Below, in pieces: positions 21,083 through 30,210 of a DNA stretch of 64,000 bases. How positions within the stretch are numbered: position 1 is the stretch's first letter; every line of letters begins with the position of its first letter. Made by a program: the position numbers and the translations under genes. The notes below the pieces were generated by a model. It was given only the letters and a program-made list of their open reading frames with translations, was not told the DNA's origin and did no database searches. Origin of the DNA: Polyangiaceae bacterium. GTDB lineage: Bacteria > Myxococcota_A > Polyangia > Polyangiales > Polyangiaceae. The stretch lies in the NCBI GenBank assembly GCA_022842465.1, contig JALHPN010000013.1:1-64000 (forward strand), given 5' to 3'.

Positions 21083-23448
21083 CGCGCCGCTCCTTCCGCG
21101 CTCGAGACCGCGTCGCCCGACTTCTTCACGTCCGTCGAGTGTTTGCCGAGCCGCTGGAGGTAGGCGATGACGGCGACCATCTGCGTGTCGGGCTTGACCT
21201 CGACGCCCTCGGTCGCGAGGTCCTTCACGATCGCCTCGCCCTGCGCGCGCGCGTCGGTCTGGGCGTTCGCGATGTCCGCGTCCTTGTAGGGGACGCCCAC
21301 GCTCTTCATCGCCGACAGCTTCGCGGAGGTGCGCGCGAGGTCGACCGTATCGGTCGCCATCTGCGGGTACGCCGGCATGTTCGAGCCCGCCGTGATCGCG
21401 CGCGGGTCCATCATGTGTCGGTAGTGCCAGAGGTTCGGGTACTTCCCGCCCTCGCGCGACAGATCCGGCCCCGTGCGCTTGGAGCCCCACTGGAAAGGGT
21501 GGTCGTAGATCGACTCGGCGAGGGTCGACGGATCGCCGTAGCGGGTCGTCTCGAACCGCATCGGGCGGATCATCTGCGAGTGGCAGGTGTAGCAACCCTC
21601 CTGGAGGAAGACGTCGCGGCCCTCGAGCTCGAGCGCGCGGTACGGCTTGATGTCGGCCGCGCCGGCGATCTCCGCCGGCCTCACGATGAGGGCGGGGACG
21701 AGCTCGGCGACGCCGCCCGCGAGCACCGCGATGGCGCTCATGACCGTGAAGAGGAGCGCCCTGCCCTCGAGCATGCGGTGCCACGCGGGCCCGCCAGCCT
21801 TCTTCGCGGACTGGATGGCGAGGGCGCCGAAGACGCCGATCACGAAGGCCGCGATCGTGAAGAGCGGGCTCGTGAACGCGTTCGCGACGAAGCCCACACC
21901 GGCGAAACCGAGGACGGCGATCGTGACGACGACGGGGCGCGAGAACGCGATCTCGGTCCAGGGGACCTCCGGCCCGCGCGGCAGCGCGATGACGGTCGTA
22001 CCGGACGAGACCTGCTTCTGGCCGGCCATCGTCTTCGCGAGGTTCACGGCCATCATGATCATGCCGGCGAGGTACATGAGGCCGCCGAGGAGCCGGAGCC
22101 AGTAGAGCGACCGGATCGCGATGAGCGTCTCCACGAACGTCGGGTACATGAGCGACCCGTCGGCGTTCGTCGCGCGCCACATCATGCCCTGCGTCACGCC
22201 CGCGACCCACATCGCGACCATGTAGAGGAGGATGCCGAAGGTCCCGAGCCAGAAGTGCGCGTCGGCGAGCTTCGTCGACCAGAGCTTTCGGCCGTAGAGC
22301 TTCGGGATCATCCAGTAGAACATCCCGGCGGCCATGAAGCCGTTCCAGCCGAGCGCGCCGGAGTGGACGTGGCCGATGATCCAGTCCGTGTAGTGTGCAA
22401 GACCGCTCACGCTCTTGATCGAGAGGAGCGGGCCCTCGAAGGTCGCCATCCCGTAGAACGTCACACCGCCGGCGAAGAACTTGAGGACGGGGTCCGTCCG
22501 CAGCTTGTCCCAGCCGCCGCGTAGCGTGAGGAGGCCGTTCAACATCCCGCCCCAGGACGGCGCCCAGAGCATGAGGCTGAAGATCATGCCGAGCGTCTGC
22601 GCCCAGTCGGGCAGCGCGGTGTTGAGCAGGTGGTGAGGGCCGGCCCAGATGTAGACGAAGATCAGCGCCCAGAAGTGGATGATGCTGAGCCGGTAGCTGT
22701 AGACCGGGCGCCCCGCCGCCTTCGGCAGGAAGTAGTACATGATGCCGAGCACGGGGGTCGTGAGGAAGAAGGCGACCGCGTTGTGGCCGTACCACCACTG
22801 CACGAGCGCATCCTGCGCGCCGCCGTACACCGAGTAGCTCTTCATCGCGAAGACGGGGATCGCGAGCGAGTTGACGATGTGGAGGACGGCGACGGTGACG
22901 ATCGACGCGATGTAGAACCAGATCGCGACGTAGATGTGTTTCTCGTTCCGGCGCGCGAGCGTCCAGAAGAAGTTCACCGCGAAGACGACCCAGACGAGCG
23001 CGATCGCGATGTCGATCGGCCACTCGAGCTCCGCGTACTCCTTGCCCTGCGTGATGCCGAGCGGGAGGGTGATCGCGGCGGAGACGATGATCGCCTGCCA
23101 GCCCCAGAAGTGGATCTTCGAGAGCAGATCGCTCGCCGTGCGCGTCTTCGCGAGGCGCTGCGTCGAGTAGTAGATGCCGGAGAAGACCATGTTGCCGACG
23201 AACGCGAAGATGACGGCGTTCGTGTGGAGCGGCCGGAGGCGTCCGAACGAGAGCCACGCGTGGACGTTCGCCGGGTGCCAGGCGAGCTGGAGGGCGACGA
23301 TGACGCCGACGAGCATCCCGACGATGCCCCACAGGACGGAGGCGACGGCGAAGAGCTTCGGCGTCTCGTCGTCGTAGACGATGTCGAGGCGCTTTCCGCC
23401 CGTCTCCTGGACGGCGTCGTCGCGATCGAGGACGGCGGGTGCGTTCAT
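21079..23448 (-). CDS. ccoNO: Fused cbb3-type cytochrome c oxidase subunits I and II (CcoN-CcoO)
   Basis: The 789-residue product joins the catalytic subunit to the mono-haem subunit. Residues 1 to about 470 are CcoN: haem and CuB histidines are seen in LRPLHTNAVIFAF, WWYGHNAVAFFL, YIWAGPHHLLNTALPDW and DWIIGHVHSGALGWNG. After a few extra membrane segments, the CcoO part has GRDVFLQEGCYTCHSQMIRP with CYTCH as the haem c site and the distal Met in GSNMPAYP. It reduces O2 to water at high affinity and pumps protons. The ATG at 23448 overlaps the ccoS stop, which fixes the start despite a longer open frame. Confidence 0.96.
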   Translation of the reverse strand: MNAPAVLDRDDAVQETGGKRLDIVYDDETPKLFAVASVLWGIVGMLVGVIVALQLAWHPANVHAWLSFGRLRPLHTNAVIFAFVGNMVFSGIYYSTQRLAKTRTASDLLSKIHFWGWQAIIVSAAITLPLGITQGKEYAELEWPIDIAIALVWVVFAVNFFWTLARRNEKHIYVAIWFYIASIVTVAVLHIVNSLAIPVFAMKSYSVYGGAQDALVQWWYGHNAVAFFLTTPVLGIMYYFLPKAAGRPVYSYRLSIIHFWALIFVYIWAGPHHLLNTALPDWAQTLGMIFSLMLWAPSWGGMLNGLLTLRGGWDKLRTDPVLKFFAGGVTFYGMATFEGPLLSIKSVSGLAHYTDWIIGHVHSGALGWNGFMAAGMFYWMIPKLYGRKLWSTKLADAHFWLGTFGILLYMVAMWVAGVTQGMMWRATNADGSLMYPTFVETLIAIRSLYWLRLLGGLMYLAGMIMMAVNLAKTMAGQKQVSSGTTVIALPRGPEVPWTEIAFSRPVVVTIAVLGFAGVGFVANAFTSPLFTIAAFVIGVFGALAIQSAKKAGGPAWHRMLEGRALLFTVMSAIAVLAGGVAELVPALIVRPAEIAGAADIKPYRALELEGRDVFLQEGCYTCHSQMIRPMRFETTRYGDPSTLAESIYDHPFQWGSKRTGPDLSREGGKYPNLWHYRHMMDPRAITAGSNMPAYPQMATDTVDLARTSAKLSAMKSVGVPYKDADIANAQTDARAQGEAIVKDLATEGVEVKPDTQMVAVIAYLQRLGKHSTDVKKSGDAVSSAEGAAR

Positions 23449-23609
23449 GACTCGGTTCCCTCGGTGGTGAGCTCGTCGTCCTCGGTCGGAAGGAGCGCGA
23501 GTCGGTCGGCGTGATCGAAGTCGCGCTGCCGCGCGGTGAAGAGGAAGAGCAGGACGGAGCCGATGACGAGCAGCAGGCTCACGAACACCTGCATGACGAG
23601 GATCTCCAC
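23445..23609 (-). CDS. ccoS: cbb3-type oxidase assembly protein CcoS
   Basis: This 54-residue gene starts at GTG 23609 after the ribosome-binding site GGGAGAG. The product has one membrane helix (VFVSLLLVIGSVLLFLF) and the CcoS tail pattern TARQRDFDHADRLALLPTED, close to the family's W-x-x-x-x-GQFDD-x-x-x-P. CcoS is needed to insert haem and copper into CcoN. Its TGA overlaps the ATG of ccoNO. It opens the operon, and a -24/-12-like site lies 67-82 nt upstream. Confidence 0.85.
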   Translation of the reverse strand: MEILVMQVFVSLLLVIGSVLLFLFTARQRDFDHADRLALLPTEDDELTTEGTES

Positions 23610-23675
23610 GGACTCTCCCGGCGGACGGCGGGTCGTGCGGGATGCACGAGCTGCTGGCCGTCCGTTCGGCGCTCA

Positions 23676-23691
23676 CGCAACGGGCATGCCT
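23676..23691 (-). promoter_or_regulatory. Sigma-54-like -24/-12 element facing the cco operon
   Basis: On the minus strand AGGCATGCCCGTTGCG has GGCA, a perfect TTGC and exact GG-N10-GC spacing. The predicted start near 23665 gives a 56-nt leader to ccoS. It is one of the weaker members (CAT instead of CAC). Confidence 0.38.
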
Positions 23692-23695
23692 GTGT

Positions 23696-23710
23696 GATCG
23701 TGCGACGATC
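23696..23710. promoter_or_regulatory. Perfect inverted repeat GATCGT-GCG-ACGATC upstream of the cco operon
   Basis: Two 6-bp arms with a 3-bp spacer lie 4 bp upstream of the -24/-12-like site. It could be an operator for the oxidase operon; it is not an FNR box (TTGAT-N4-ATCAA). The binding protein is unknown. Confidence 0.35.
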
Positions 23711-23879
23711 GGCCGCTCGGGCGCGGGGCCCGCGCGCGTCCCGTGCAGCGGCGCGCATCGTTTGCGCCGGCGCTAATGGAGCGCGGCCGCGAAGCAGGGC
23801 GCCTGCGCGCGGCCTCGCGATCCGCGTCTGGTGGTGTCGTGGGAGGCGCGGGCGGCGGCCGCCCACCCTCCTTCCGCGA

Positions 23880-23908
23880 TGACGACGTCGGCCTCTCGGG
23901 GCTATGCT
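23880..23908 (+). promoter_or_regulatory. Sigma-70-like promoter of the MYXO-CTERM gene
   Basis: TGACGA (23880-23885) and TATGCT (23903-23908) are spaced 17 bp; shifting the first by one base gives ATGACG with 18 bp. The start codon follows at 23918, so the leader would be very short. Confidence 0.35.
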
Positions 23909-23917
23909 CCGCGCCGC

Positions 23918-24421
23918 ATGAAGCGCTTCACCTCCGCCCTTGCGGCGCTCGTCTTCCCGGTCTCGTTCGCCTTCGCCCTCACGGCGCGCCCTGCCGTCCT
24001 CTACGCCGAGAGCTCCACGCTCGGGGACTGCACCTCGGCCGCGTCCACTTCGTGCGCAGGCAAGGCCGCGGCGGCGACCTGCACGACCGACGACGGCAAG
24101 GCTGGGACCTGCACGGCGACTCGCTGCGCGAGCCCTGACGGCGGATCCGGCTCGTCGCTCGTCTGTCTCGAGAGGCCGACGACGACGCCGACCCCGGGCA
24201 AGACGATCCCGGAGGCGCCGTCGGAGACGACGCCCGCGGGCACGACGGCGAACGACGACGGGGGCTGCTCGCTCGCGACCTCGCGCGGTACCTCCGGTGC
24301 CCCCGTCGCTCTCCTGCTGGCAGGCCTCGCGTTCGCCTCTCTCGCGTTCGCACGTCGCGTGCGTCGCGCGCGTCGCGAGGGTGGTCGACGTCCTCCCGGT
24401 CGTACCTCGACCCACTGCTGA
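23918..24421 (+). CDS. Secreted Cys-rich protein with MYXO-CTERM-like sorting tail (167 aa)
   Basis: A signal peptide (MKRFTSALAALVFPVSFAFA) is followed by a small Cys-rich region (DCTSAASTSCAG, ATCTTDD, TCTATRCASP, LVCLER) and a Thr/Pro linker. The C-terminus has a Gly-Cys (DDGGCSLATSRG), a hydrophobic helix (VALLLAGLAFASLAF) and an Arg cluster (ARRVRRARR), which is the MYXO-CTERM plan: invariant Cys, helix, basic end. Such tails are thought to be cut by a rhombosortase- or CPBP-type sortase (myxosortase) and lipid-anchored. The tail runs 20 residues past the basic cluster, longer than usual. Confidence 0.7.
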   Translation: MKRFTSALAALVFPVSFAFALTARPAVLYAESSTLGDCTSAASTSCAGKAAAATCTTDDGKAGTCTATRCASPDGGSGSSLVCLERPTTTPTPGKTIPEAPSETTPAGTTANDDGGCSLATSRGTSGAPVALLLAGLAFASLAFARRVRRARREGGRRPPGRTSTHC

Positions 24422-24532
24422 CCTCGGGTTTCGCCGGACGAACGCGCCTACCTACGTCGTCGCCACCGAGGGCCGCGGAATCCGCGTCGTGGCGTGCGCC
24501 GAAGCAGGCCCTTTCTCGCAGAATCGGTCATC

Positions 24533-25960
24533 ATGAAGCCGATGGATTCGCACCCGCTCGACCGCGGGCTCCGTGGCGCCGCGCTCTGCGCGATCGTCCT
24601 CGGCGTCACGACGATGTGCGCGGCCCCGACCGAGATCCTCGTCGACGTCTACACCGAGGTCGACTGCGCGAAGGACCCGACGACGGCCGTGGTCGTCGGT
24701 CCCACGCTCGTGTCCCTCCAGACGAGCGCGGTGACGTCGACGCTCTCGTCGTGCGCGCCGCGCACCCAGCGCAGCGGGCGGGTCGTGCTCTCTCCAGCCG
24801 GGGAGCGCGACGCGTCGATCGCCTTCCAGATCGTCACGCGCGACGACGGCGAGGATCCCGAGCGCTCGTGCACGGCGTCTTCGTCGGCCGGCTGCATCGT
24901 CGCCAGGCGCCAGCTCCGCTTCGTCCCCGGCGCGTCGACGCGCGTCGACGTCGCGCTGAGGCTCTCCTGTCTCGGCGTGACGTGCCCGATCGAGGAGACG
25001 TGCCGGAACGGAGCCTGCGAGGCCGCAGCGGTGCCGGACGGGTGCCTCGGGGGCGTGTGTCCCGACTCGCTTCCCGAGCCGGGGAGCGCGGACGCCGGCA
25101 CGGCGGCCGACGCGAGCACGCCTCCGCTCCGCGACGCGAGCTCGCCCGACGGCGGCGGCCCCTCGTCGACGCTGCCCGAGGTCGTCGATGTCCCCACGCT
25201 CGTCTACGCCAGCGACGACCCCAGCTATCAGGTGCGCGGGCTCGCGGCATCGCCGGGCGGGCTCGTCTGGGTCGAGACGAGGAGCAGCGATCCCGCCCCG
25301 CGCTACCAGAAGGCGAGCTGGGACTCGATGACGACGCCGACGACGGCCACCCTCCCCGCGGACGCCGGCGTCGGCATCTCCGTCGACGAGAACGGGGACC
25401 AGCTGACGATCGGGCGTTCAGGGCCCACGCACTGCGCCGACGTCTTGGGCGTCGGCTCCGTCACGTGCTCCGGCGCGTTCCTGACGAACGGCGGCGTCGC
25501 GCACATGGGCGGGCAAACCTATCTCGTAGGAGCCCAGAGCGTATCGCCCGCGGTCGGGTGGTTCGGCGCCGGGCCGACGGTCTCCGGAGTCTGCACGCTG
25601 CCCTCGCTCCTCGTCCCGCGCTACGCGGAGGCGAGGGGAGGCTTCCTCTTCGTCGCCCTGGGGGCCGCGGTCGGGCGGATCACGCTTCCCCTGACCGGAG
25701 GCCAGCCTTGCATGACGCCCATTTTCGTCCTGTCCGACCTGGTCAACGGTAGGGGGGTTGCCGTGAGCAACGAGAGCGACATCGTCTGCGGTGGCGACGA
25801 CGGCGCGATCGTGTGCGCGTTCGCCGCTCTCGGCAACCAAAGGGTCAGGTTCGCCGAGACGAAGCGCCCCACCGAGGACCTCGCGATGCGCGCTCTCGAC
25901 GCCAGGCGTTTCGTCTACTACGCCGCGGGCCACGAGATTTGGGTCGTGAGGATCCTATGA
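24533..25960 (+). CDS. Secreted protein, first of two paralogues (475 aa)
   Basis: After a signal-type hydrophobic segment the mature part begins TMCAAPTEILVDVYTEVDC, a start shared with the next gene. An N-terminal domain of about 150 residues with paired cysteines ends in the EGF-like TCPIEETCRNGACE. A Pro/Ala/Asp/Ser linker (about residues 175-215) leads to a beta-propeller-like domain with repeating GG-LVW, GG-YLV and CGGDDGAIVCAF segments. Function is unknown; a surface-displayed binding protein is plausible. I chose ATG 24533 because it gives a regular signal peptide. Its stop overlaps the next ATG as ATGA. Confidence 0.75.
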   Translation: MKPMDSHPLDRGLRGAALCAIVLGVTTMCAAPTEILVDVYTEVDCAKDPTTAVVVGPTLVSLQTSAVTSTLSSCAPRTQRSGRVVLSPAGERDASIAFQIVTRDDGEDPERSCTASSSAGCIVARRQLRFVPGASTRVDVALRLSCLGVTCPIEETCRNGACEAAAVPDGCLGGVCPDSLPEPGSADAGTAADASTPPLRDASSPDGGGPSSTLPEVVDVPTLVYASDDPSYQVRGLAASPGGLVWVETRSSDPAPRYQKASWDSMTTPTTATLPADAGVGISVDENGDQLTIGRSGPTHCADVLGVGSVTCSGAFLTNGGVAHMGGQTYLVGAQSVSPAVGWFGAGPTVSGVCTLPSLLVPRYAEARGGFLFVALGAAVGRITLPLTGGQPCMTPIFVLSDLVNGRGVAVSNESDIVCGGDDGAIVCAFAALGNQRVRFAETKRPTEDLAMRALDARRFVYYAAGHEIWVVRIL

Positions 25961-26910
25961 CGCACGTACGGAGATCGCGACCCCGCGTCGGCGGCCTCGT
26001 GCTCGTCGGCGGCGTCCTCGGCCTCGCGCTGGCGACGGTCATGTGCGCGGCGCCCACGGAGATCGTCGTCGACGTCTACACGGAGGTCGCTTGCGCGAGC
26101 GGCCCGAAGACGACGTTCAAGGCGGCCGCATCGCTCGCCGAGCTCCGCTCGCAGGCCGTCACGTCGGAGCTCGTCGCCTGCGCGCCCCGCACCGAGCGAA
26201 GCGGGCGGATCGTGCTCTCGCCGTCGGCGGCGAGGGACGAGACCGTCGCCTTCGAGGTGGCGACCCGCAACGACGCAGAGGACACGGCTCGGAAGTGCAC
26301 CGACCAGAGCTACGTCGGATGCATCGTCGCGAGACGTCAGCTGCGGTTCTCTCCCGGCGCCTCGACGCGCGTCGAGGTCGCGCTTCGCCTCTCGTGCCTC
26401 GACAAAGCCTGCCTCCCGACGGAGACCTGCCGGAACGGGACGTGCGAGTCGGCCGTCCTCCCCGAGTCGTGTCTAGGTGTAGATTGCACGGATCCGGCCG
26501 TCGAAGCGCCGCCGCCGGGGCCTGGCGACGCGGCGGTCGCGACGGAGGCGGGGGCGGACGCTGCGCCGCCCGCGGAGGACGTTGTTCCGGAGGGGATCGG
26601 TGAGGTCGCGCCGTCGCCCGTCTACGTCCTGCCGGGCGGCGAGATCCGCGGCCTCTCCGTCTTCGACGGCGGGCTCGTCTGGCTCGAGGTGCCTCCGTCC
26701 TCGACGGGAGCGCGCGTGAGGAAGGGATTCTGGGGGAACCTCGGAGCCGCCTCCGGCTACCTCGTCGGGAACGGCTACGGCGTGAGCTCGGACCCGCAGG
26801 GGAACGGCATCGTGGCCGCCCAGGACGTCGGGCAAGGGCCTTGCGCGCACCAGCAGACGACCGGCCGAGCCTCGCCGCGCGCGCGCTGGCGGTCTCGAGC
26901 GGCTCGATGA
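25957..26910 (+). CDS. Secreted protein, second paralogue, truncated at its 3' end (317 aa frame)
   Basis: It parallels the preceding protein: VMCAAPTEIVVDVYTEVACA, the same Cys domain with CLPTETCRNGTCE, an acidic/Ala linker, and the start of the propeller (IRGLSVFDGGLVWLEVPP). Homology to the paralogue stops after QDVGQGPCAH at about 26,848; the last 20 residues (from about 26,851) are Arg/Ala-rich and are antisense to the kinase gene on the other strand. The paralogue continues for about 155 more residues. The gene has therefore lost its 3' third and is probably non-functional. Confidence 0.65.
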   Translation: MTHVRRSRPRVGGLVLVGGVLGLALATVMCAAPTEIVVDVYTEVACASGPKTTFKAAASLAELRSQAVTSELVACAPRTERSGRIVLSPSAARDETVAFEVATRNDAEDTARKCTDQSYVGCIVARRQLRFSPGASTRVEVALRLSCLDKACLPTETCRNGTCESAVLPESCLGVDCTDPAVEAPPPGPGDAAVATEAGADAAPPAEDVVPEGIGEVAPSPVYVLPGGEIRGLSVFDGGLVWLEVPPSSTGARVRKGFWGNLGAASGYLVGNGYGVSSDPQGNGIVAAQDVGQGPCAHQQTTGRASPRARWRSRAAR

Positions 26911-27619
26911 GCAGCTCGCGGAGCAGCTTCGCGGGGACGATGTCCTCCGAGTACGCGGAGATCCAGTAGCTGCCCCCGGTCAGGAGTTGGAACGCGAGGA
27001 GGCCGAGGGCCCACACGTCGGTGGCCGGGGTGACGCTGCCCGACGGATCCGTCTGCTCCGGCGCCATCCACAGCGGCGTCCCGATCGCGCCGGTGCTCCC
27101 CACGCCGGTCGACGTGACCTTCGCGATGCCGAAATCGAGGATCTTCACGAGGAGCGCGCGATCCGCGATGCGTGACGACGCGAGGAAGACGTTCTCCGGC
27201 TTGAGATCGCGGTGGACGATCTTCGCGTCGTGCGCGGCGGCGAGGCCGTGGCACAGCTGCGCGAGGATCTCGGCGCTCGTCTCGACCGAGAGGCGCCCTT
27301 CACGGTCGAGACGTGCCGCGAGGTCCTCGCCCTCGAGGAGCTCCATCACGAGCCACGGCCGACCGTCGGGCCCGTCGTCGCCCGCGGCCACGACCTCCAC
27401 GACGTGCTCGCTCGCGATCTGCGCGCCGACGCGGGCCTCCTGGGCGAAGCGGCGGCGCGCCTCCACGCCGTCCATCCCGACGTGCAGGAGCTTGAGCGCA
27501 CGGAGCTTCCCCGTGCTGAGCTGCTCGACCACCCACACCGCGCCCATGCCGCCCTCGGAGAGAGGACGGACGAGCCGATAGTCCTTTCCGAACGGGCGTC
27601 CGGGCTCGAGCGCCGCCAT
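26159..27619 (-). pseudogene. Hanks-type Ser/Thr protein kinase, truncated after subdomain IX/X
   Basis: From ATG 27619 the frame encodes a clear kinase: LSEGGMGAVWVVEQ glycine loop, the ATP Lys in ALKLLHV, catalytic HRDLKPEN (residues 137-144), ILDFGIAKV, and TPLWMAPEQ with DVWALGLLAF. After RAARLG (residue 252, about 26,864) the kinase text stops and the frame runs antisense through the truncated secreted-protein gene as an Arg/Ser/Pro-rich sequence to the stop at 26159. The end of the C-lobe with its conserved Arg, and the usual linker and membrane segment, are missing. It starts 34 bp after ccoI on the same strand. Confidence 0.7.
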
Positions 27620-27653
27620 CCGCCTCAGCGTAGCCGACGCCCGCGTGTGCGCG

Positions 27654-30098
27654 TCAGGAAACCGCAGCGGGGCGGCGCGGGGTGCCCCGCAGCTTCACCG
27701 TCGTCGCGAGGACCGTGGACACGGAGCTCACGGGCATGAGGATGGCACACAGGAGCGGCGTCATCACACCTGCCAGCGCGAGGCCGACCGTGATGACGTT
27801 GTAGAAGAGCGCGATGACGAGGTTCGTGTGGACGACCCGGCGGAGGCGCTTCGCGGCGTCGAGCGCAGCCCGGATCGGACGGAGCCCGGGCGTCACGAAA
27901 TAGAAGTCGCAGCGTGCGGCCATGAACGGGCGATCGATCGCGGGGGTCCCCGCGCACAGCGCCTCTTCGGCGACGAGGCTGTCGTTGAGCCCGTCGCCGA
28001 CGAAGAGCGTCCGTGCCGAGGCGTCCCCGTGGCTGCGGAGCCAGGCGGCCTTGCCCTCCGGCGAGCGGCCGCCGAACGCGTGATCCGGCGCGATCCCACA
28101 CGCGGCGGCCATCTCACGCGTCGCGTCGAGCCCGTCTCCGGAGAGGACGAAGGGCTCGTAGCCCTCCGCCCGGAGCGCGAGCACCTCGGCGCGTGCGTCG
28201 TCGCGGAGCTCTTCGCCCGTCGTGATCGACGCGAGCGGCTCGCCGTCCTTCGTGAAGAGGACGTCGGCGCGCGCGCTCGCGAGCGTCGTCGTCCTGGCGA
28301 GGGCGGTCGCCCATGCCGGCGCCCCGAGCCGGTAGACGCCGTCGGTCGCGACGAGCTCGAGGCCCTTCCCGGCCACCTCGCGCACGTCGCGTGCAGCGTC
28401 GAAGACGGGGGGCGCGCCGAGCGAGGCGAGCGCGTCGACGACGGCCCGGCTCTTCGGGTGCGAGCTCCGGACGGCGAGGTCTCCGAGCTTCGCCTGGTCT
28501 TCCGGCGCGAGCGCCTCGAGCGGGGACACGTCTCGGACGGTGAGGCGCCCGGTCGTGAGCGTGCCCGTCTTGTCGAAGACGACGCGGTCGACCAGCACGG
28601 CGCGATCGAGGAAGCCGGGGGTCCGAACGAAGAGGCCCGTCCGCCGGAGGCCGGCTTGGGCGAGCTCGTAGGCGAGCGGGACCGCGATCCCGAACGCGCA
28701 AGGGCACGTCACGATGAGGACGGCCGCGACGACGTCGAGCGTGCGCTGGACGTCGTGGGTGGCGAGCCACCAGCCGAGCGAGCCCGCGGTGGCGAGCCCG
28801 AGGACGGAGGCGACGTACACGCTCGTGAGGCGCTTCCACCACGGCGTCGACCGCGCGAGGTCGGCGTCGCGCCGGGACGTCGTGCGGAGGAGGGCCACGA
28901 TCGTGGACGCGTCGAACGCCGCCTTCGCGACGAGCGTCGCTGCGCGCGCGTCCTGACAGAACGCGCCCGCGGGCACGACCTCGCCCGTCGCGAACGAGCG
29001 CGGCGCGCTCTCGCCGTTGATCCAGTCGAGCGAGAAGGTGGCGGTCCCCGACACGAGCTCGGCCTCGACGGGGACGAGGTCCTGGTGACCGACGAGCAGG
29101 CGGTCGCCGAGCCCCACGTCGGTGCAGCGCACGAGCTCGGCCGTCCCGTCCTCGCGGAGGCGCCTCGTGAAGAGGCCCTCCGCCCCGTCGGACGCGAGCA
29201 GGTAGGCGCGGTTCTTCGCGAGCACGCGCTCCTGGAGGAAGCGTCCGACGAGCATCAAGGCGATGAACACGTTGATCGTGTCGAAGTACGACGTGCCGCC
29301 GCCGCGCTCGAAGAAATTGTAGGTCGAGCTCGAGAACGCGAGGAAGATGCCGAGCGCGATCGGGAGATCGAGGTGGAGCACGCGTCGGCGCAGCGCTTGC
29401 CACGCGGAGCGGAAGAACACGGTGCCCCCGACGAGGACGCTCAGGAAGGAGAGCGCGAAGTCGAGGCCGTGGAACAGGCGGAACACGCGCGGCTCCTCTT
29501 CCCCGAGGCCGAGATACAGCGCGAACCCGAAGATCATCGTGTTCATCGCGATCGCGATGCAGACGCCCATCCGCCAGACGAGATCGGTGTCTCCCGCGCG
29601 CGCCTTGCCCTTCAGCGGCGGGCCGAAGCGGTAGCCGAAGGACTCGACCGCACCGACGAAGCTCGAGAGCGAGAACTCGGGGGTGACCGAGAGCTCGGCG
29701 GAGCCCACGGCGGGGTTCACGAGGATGCTCCCGGCGCCCTTCTCGCGCCGGAACATCTCCTCGAAGAGCCAGACGCACGCGGCGCAGTGGACGCCTTGCA
29801 CGTCCAGCACGACGCGCGCGTAGGACGTGCTTGCGGTGGTCTCGAGCTTCGCCTGCACCGCCTCGAGCCACTTGTGATCGAACGAGCCTCGCTGGATGGG
29901 ATGCCCCTCGCCTCCGCCGAGGTCGTAGTAGCGATCGAGCCCCGCGCGGACGAGGAGGTGATTCACCTCCTCGCACCCGCGGCAGCAGAACGCCGCGGAG
30001 GACTCGCGCGGCGCGGGGCGCGCGAGGGGCGTCCCGCAGTGGACGCAGTCCTCGGCGAGCGGTGCGGGGACGAGCGGGGACGTCGAGGCAGCAGCCAC
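27654..30098 (-). CDS. ccoI: Copper-transporting P1B-type ATPase of the cbb3 oxidase assembly type (CcoI/FixI)
   Basis: From GTG 30098 the product has 814 residues. The N-terminus is the Cys-rich metal-binding segment of this branch (DCVHCGTPL, AFCCRGCEEVNHLL), then an HMA domain with the ion site GVHCAACVW. The membrane ion site is CPC in TCPCAFG, the phosphorylation site DKTGTLT is at about residue 510, and SSHPKS and GDGLNDS complete the ATPase. This architecture is that of CcoI, which exports copper to the cbb3 CuB site. The gene is 4 kb away from the cco operon. An open frame upstream of the GTG has no better start. Confidence 0.88.
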   Translation of the reverse strand: MAAASTSPLVPAPLAEDCVHCGTPLARPAPRESSAAFCCRGCEEVNHLLVRAGLDRYYDLGGGEGHPIQRGSFDHKWLEAVQAKLETTASTSYARVVLDVQGVHCAACVWLFEEMFRREKGAGSILVNPAVGSAELSVTPEFSLSSFVGAVESFGYRFGPPLKGKARAGDTDLVWRMGVCIAIAMNTMIFGFALYLGLGEEEPRVFRLFHGLDFALSFLSVLVGGTVFFRSAWQALRRRVLHLDLPIALGIFLAFSSSTYNFFERGGGTSYFDTINVFIALMLVGRFLQERVLAKNRAYLLASDGAEGLFTRRLREDGTAELVRCTDVGLGDRLLVGHQDLVPVEAELVSGTATFSLDWINGESAPRSFATGEVVPAGAFCQDARAATLVAKAAFDASTIVALLRTTSRRDADLARSTPWWKRLTSVYVASVLGLATAGSLGWWLATHDVQRTLDVVAAVLIVTCPCAFGIAVPLAYELAQAGLRRTGLFVRTPGFLDRAVLVDRVVFDKTGTLTTGRLTVRDVSPLEALAPEDQAKLGDLAVRSSHPKSRAVVDALASLGAPPVFDAARDVREVAGKGLELVATDGVYRLGAPAWATALARTTTLASARADVLFTKDGEPLASITTGEELRDDARAEVLALRAEGYEPFVLSGDGLDATREMAAACGIAPDHAFGGRSPEGKAAWLRSHGDASARTLFVGDGLNDSLVAEEALCAGTPAIDRPFMAARCDFYFVTPGLRPIRAALDAAKRLRRVVHTNLVIALFYNVITVGLALAGVMTPLLCAILMPVSSVSTVLATTVKLRGTPRRPAAVS

Positions 30099-30210
30099 GG
30101 TCGAGAGGCCGACGCAATCCGCGTTCCACGCGGGATCCCGGCCGCTCCCGTGATCGGCGGCGCCCTCACCGACGCGCGGCTTGCGTCGCGCGCAGGTCTT
30201 GCGTGGACGA

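Follow-up and report, generated by a model that had tools for sequence, protein, structure and literature searches.

Deletions that join two neighbouring genes are one way in which pseudogenes form. In the closest relatives of the genome studied here, the cbb3-oxidase genes are tightly packed, with ccoI abutting ccoS-ccoN. Eukaryotic-like kinases are known in large number in myxobacteria (PMC2887360). A literature search otherwise returned general background only, and nothing in it bore directly on the junction described below.

We analysed a 64,000-nucleotide stretch of DNA (the window) from contig C13 of a draft assembly of 9.57 Mb in 431 contigs (97% complete, 6% contamination). The nearest named relatives of this genome in the collections searched were Polyangiaceae/Labilithrix-type metagenome-assembled genomes (MAGs). 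A first-pass annotation had reported that a plus-strand secreted-protein gene (B) and a minus-strand Ser/Thr kinase gene (K) are both truncated at one point. We confirmed that the two truncations are real and correctly placed, and we found that their junction lies inside an insert of approximately 4.06 kb between ccoI and ccoS of the cbb3-oxidase cluster. In our judgment, the junction at approximately 26,854 to 26,866 is probably a genuine deletion breakpoint that joined B and K tail to tail within this lineage-specific insert.

Lineage-specific DNA between ccoI and ccoS

The window retains the gene content and order of the ccoI-ccoS-ccoN cluster of its relatives but differs from it by the DNA inserted between ccoI and ccoS. 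The cluster genes, the genes of the insert and the features of the junction are as follows.

22018 to 23448, minus strand: ccoN/FixN (cbb3 oxidase subunit I), 75 to 81% identical to ccoN of many relatives; open frame
23445 to 23594, minus strand: ccoS/FixS-like short gene; relatives have a homologous short gene between ccoI and ccoN
23831 to 24421, plus strand: g1, small putative secreted protein and first gene of the insert; open reading frame
24533 to 25960, plus strand: A, full-length secreted protein of 475 aa and paralogue of B; open reading frame and alignment
25957 to 26856, plus strand: B, the N-terminal approximately 299 residues of a second paralogue; homology to A and to the paralogue on contig C217
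26159 to 26863, minus strand: antisense continuation of the K frame through B (234 residues, 34% Arg); open reading frame and codon usage
26854 to 26866, no strand: junction (breakpoint interval); ends of homology and codon-usage switch at 26,862 to 26,866
26857 to 26910, plus strand: antisense continuation of the B frame into K, approximately 17 foreign residues with the stop at 26,908 to 26,910; open reading frame and codon usage
26864 to 27619, minus strand: K, residues 1 to 252 of a Hanks Ser/Thr kinase, with subdomain XI and all beyond it missing; Pfam PF00069 and homologue alignment
27654 to 30107, minus strand: ccoI/FixI copper P-type ATPase, 65 to 67% identical to the closest relatives

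The ccoN frame, which runs on into more cco sequence, forms the left flank of the insert, and ccoI forms the right flank. The left edge is marked by the ccoS/FixS-like gene, for which a GTG start a few codons upstream is possible. The distance from ccoI to ccoN is 4.2 kb in the window, compared with 0.13 to 0.31 kb in all same-order relatives checked (29 loci from 23 genomes and six named MAGs, two samples that partly overlap). In the 23 genomes, the ccoI and ccoN matches were 169 to 314 bp apart, as computed from match coordinates, and in the six named MAGs the gap between ccoI and ccoS was at most 45 bp. DNA homology to relatives was lost at approximately 23,593 to 23,613 and regained near the end of ccoI, and the species-specific DNA (23,594 to 27,654) is located precisely between ccoI and ccoS. 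Among 60 genomes examined for ccoN and ccoI, all that shared the gene order lacked the insert at this site. Its edges showed no long repeat or target-site-type duplication.

The insert carries three plus-strand genes (g1, A and B) and one minus-strand gene (K), with the B/K junction in its interior. The function assigned to g1 is predicted from its sequence alone; the protein has a hydrophobic stretch at the C-terminus followed by a basic end, and it matched no Pfam family. In a cbb3-oxidase cluster that is otherwise tightly conserved, the junction is a marker of a lineage-specific insert.

Two truncations at one point

B resembles A, its adjoining upstream paralogue, and a third paralogue on contig C217, members of what we call the CAAPTEI family, over their common N-terminal approximately 290 residues. 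By BLASTP, B was 48% identical to A over 286 aa, and the match stopped at B residue 285. A more sensitive genome search extended the homology to 26,847, which agrees with the end at approximately 26,848 given in the first-pass annotation, and the C217 paralogue supports the CAHQQ stretch of B perhaps as far as approximately 26,856, in an alignment judged by eye. Both A and the C217 paralogue extend approximately 175 residues beyond this end. B therefore differs from its family in that these C-terminal residues are gone: the N-terminal domain is present, and the C-terminal domain is absent. Up to the junction, the B frame contains no stop or interruption.

K is a Hanks-type (eukaryotic-like) kinase that matched Pfam PF00069 at 1.2e-37, covering profile positions 1 to 204 of 263, and it is mostly 49 to 60% identical to its nearest relatives among the kinases of Polyangia. 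The motifs of subdomains I to IX are retained, including an intact start, the glycine loop, HRDLKPEN, DFG, APE and subdomain IX. In contrast to these kinases, K stops short of subdomain XI, and it has neither a complete C-lobe nor the conserved W and R positions of that subdomain, among them its conserved arginine. The missing tail includes P, G, F, W, R and R residues that are invariant in 12 homologues, and many relatives of K extend into additional C-terminal regions. Homology to relatives began at residue 1 and ended at residue 252 in most of them, which corresponds to 26,864, the end that had been reported at first pass; a kinase-tail profile placed it at 26,858. Like that of B, the K frame is free of stops and interruptions before the junction.

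The two breakpoints agree to within approximately 10 bp. To locate the change in coding strand, we used a codon-usage model trained on neighbouring genes, with the undamaged parts of B and K included. The maximum-likelihood switch from plus- to minus-strand coding fell at 26,862 to 26,866, and the frame favoured by GC3 phase changed from that of B to that of K between approximately 26,815 and 26,905. As first described, each frame continues antisense into the other gene, B to 26,910 and K to 26,159. Both run-ons had strongly negative coding scores and are non-coding. Antisense frames in GC-rich DNA commonly stay open in this way, as expected at 72% GC, and many such open reading frames occur in the window. 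Since the coding signal ends at the junction on both strands, natural overlapping convergent genes were ruled out. No RNA gene or terminator was found at the junction. Two genes are truncated at one point of one locus, as in a gene-pair remnant made by deletion.

These ends matter mainly for annotation. Automatic gene callers could give the kinase as 486 aa and the secreted protein as 317 aa, both with ends that are not real, and the two called genes would overlap by several hundred bases.

The N-terminal CAAPTEI(x)VDVYT domain was widespread: genes encoding it occurred in 49 of 108 genomes of the family, in many copies and with varied C-terminal parts. At 11 of 49 sampled loci, a Hanks kinase was located within approximately 1.5 kb of a gene of this kind. 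A rough estimate of kinase density predicts approximately 4% (binomial p about 4e-6), and the count at cco control loci was 0 of 58. Five of the 11 pairs were divergent, six were tandem and none was convergent. A CAAPTEI gene and a Hanks kinase may form a kinase-lipoprotein signalling pair. No kinase adjoins the C217 paralogue. The kinase-tail profile matched approximately 95 loci in the genome of the window at E values up to 10, which fits the abundance of eukaryotic-like kinases known in myxobacteria (PMC2887360).

Origin of the junction

The most economical history has a single insertion and, after it, a single deletion. We infer that g1, A and B (plus strand), together with the Hanks kinase gene K (minus strand), would have arrived between ccoI and ccoS in this lineage on a segment longer than 4 kb. 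At least approximately 0.65 kb would later have been deleted, comprising approximately 530 bp of B, at least approximately 120 bp of K and anything between them, which would have joined the two gene bodies tail to tail and left both 3'-truncated. From K, the deletion would have taken subdomain XI and any further C-terminal sequence, and from B, the C-terminal domain. The event looks recent, because neither frame is interrupted before the junction. The truncated genes are most likely non-functional or decaying.

The first-pass annotation had proposed a single deletion that removed both 3' ends, or else an assembly join. The deletion fits the data and is favoured by our tests, with a local assembly fault and a two-step rearrangement as the readings that compete with it. 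In the first of these, the true ccoI-ccoS insert would be larger, and the assembler would have skipped its middle and joined B to K. We consider this unlikely, although the draft is in 431 contigs and the otherwise undamaged frames of B and K are what would be expected if the break did not exist in the cell. Against it, the lost 3' end of B was found nowhere else in the 97%-complete assembly, in which a search profile built from the C-terminal domains of A and the C217 paralogue detected those two copies only. The kinase-tail profile gave two strong matches in the genome, both to kinases with a catalytic loop upstream, and it also matched the remnant of K itself, which breaks off at profile position 23. 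Most of the 30 best matches had a recognisable catalytic loop upstream, and none of them was an orphan kinase tail with its upstream side at a contig edge. The junction 24-mer had no second copy in the genome when up to 3 mismatches were tolerated. There is no overlap between the homologous parts of B and K, and so no sign of the shared repeat that a k-mer assembler needs for a false join. A join caused by a repeat was rejected on the same lack of another junction copy, and among the repeat pairs listed, none spanning the junction was conspicuous. The two arms of the junction lie in one cbb3-oxidase locus and match parts of one cco cluster, which makes a random chimeric contig unlikely. A genuine deletion is therefore favoured over an assembly fault by indirect tests that fall short of proof: the same picture would arise if the assembler had skipped a segment and the assembly had lost it as well.

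The second competing reading is that the B and K sides came as separate fragments, or that one of them was inverted, such that the junction would mark where an insertion or an inversion ends. Separate arrival of K or an inversion is a real alternative because none of the 11 related secreted-protein/kinase pairs was convergent; a tail-to-tail ancestor, which deletion between convergent neighbours would require, is without precedent in that sample. The absence of the whole insert from relatives also suits this reading. However, it requires more events, and no long repeat or duplication of the target-site type turned up at the edges of the insert. We regard it as improbable, somewhat more so than the assembly fault.

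The comparison with relatives holding both full genes, as suggested at first pass, yielded no such relative in this arrangement. An intact ancestor with full-length B and K was found neither in the 108 family genomes nor in a scan of GTDB contigs. A had no close counterpart among the 108 genomes, and B had no relative in the GTDB-contig scan, which may leave out records near the genome of the window.

It is very doubtful that the shortened products are functional, a reading in which B' would serve as a lipoprotein-like N-terminal domain and K' would be a truncated kinase, or a pseudokinase, that has a basic tail. Both frames are stop-free up to the junction, but the two tails have strongly negative coding scores, the invariant residues are lost with the tail of K, and no conserved orthologue of the truncated length was found. 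Just as far-fetched is a novel fusion pair produced by one deletion, in which B' and K' with its Arg-rich run-on tail are both expressed in a new role.

Comparison with deletion-joined pseudogenes

With a single deletion as the preferred reading, the B/K junction is most likely an ordinary deletion-type remnant of a gene pair in a lineage-specific insert, and a case of ordinary gene decay. It differs from the pseudogenes formed when a deletion joins two neighbouring genes in that the genes face each other, 3' ends have been lost from both and the ancestor has not been seen. It resembles them in having two coding regions that stop at one point.
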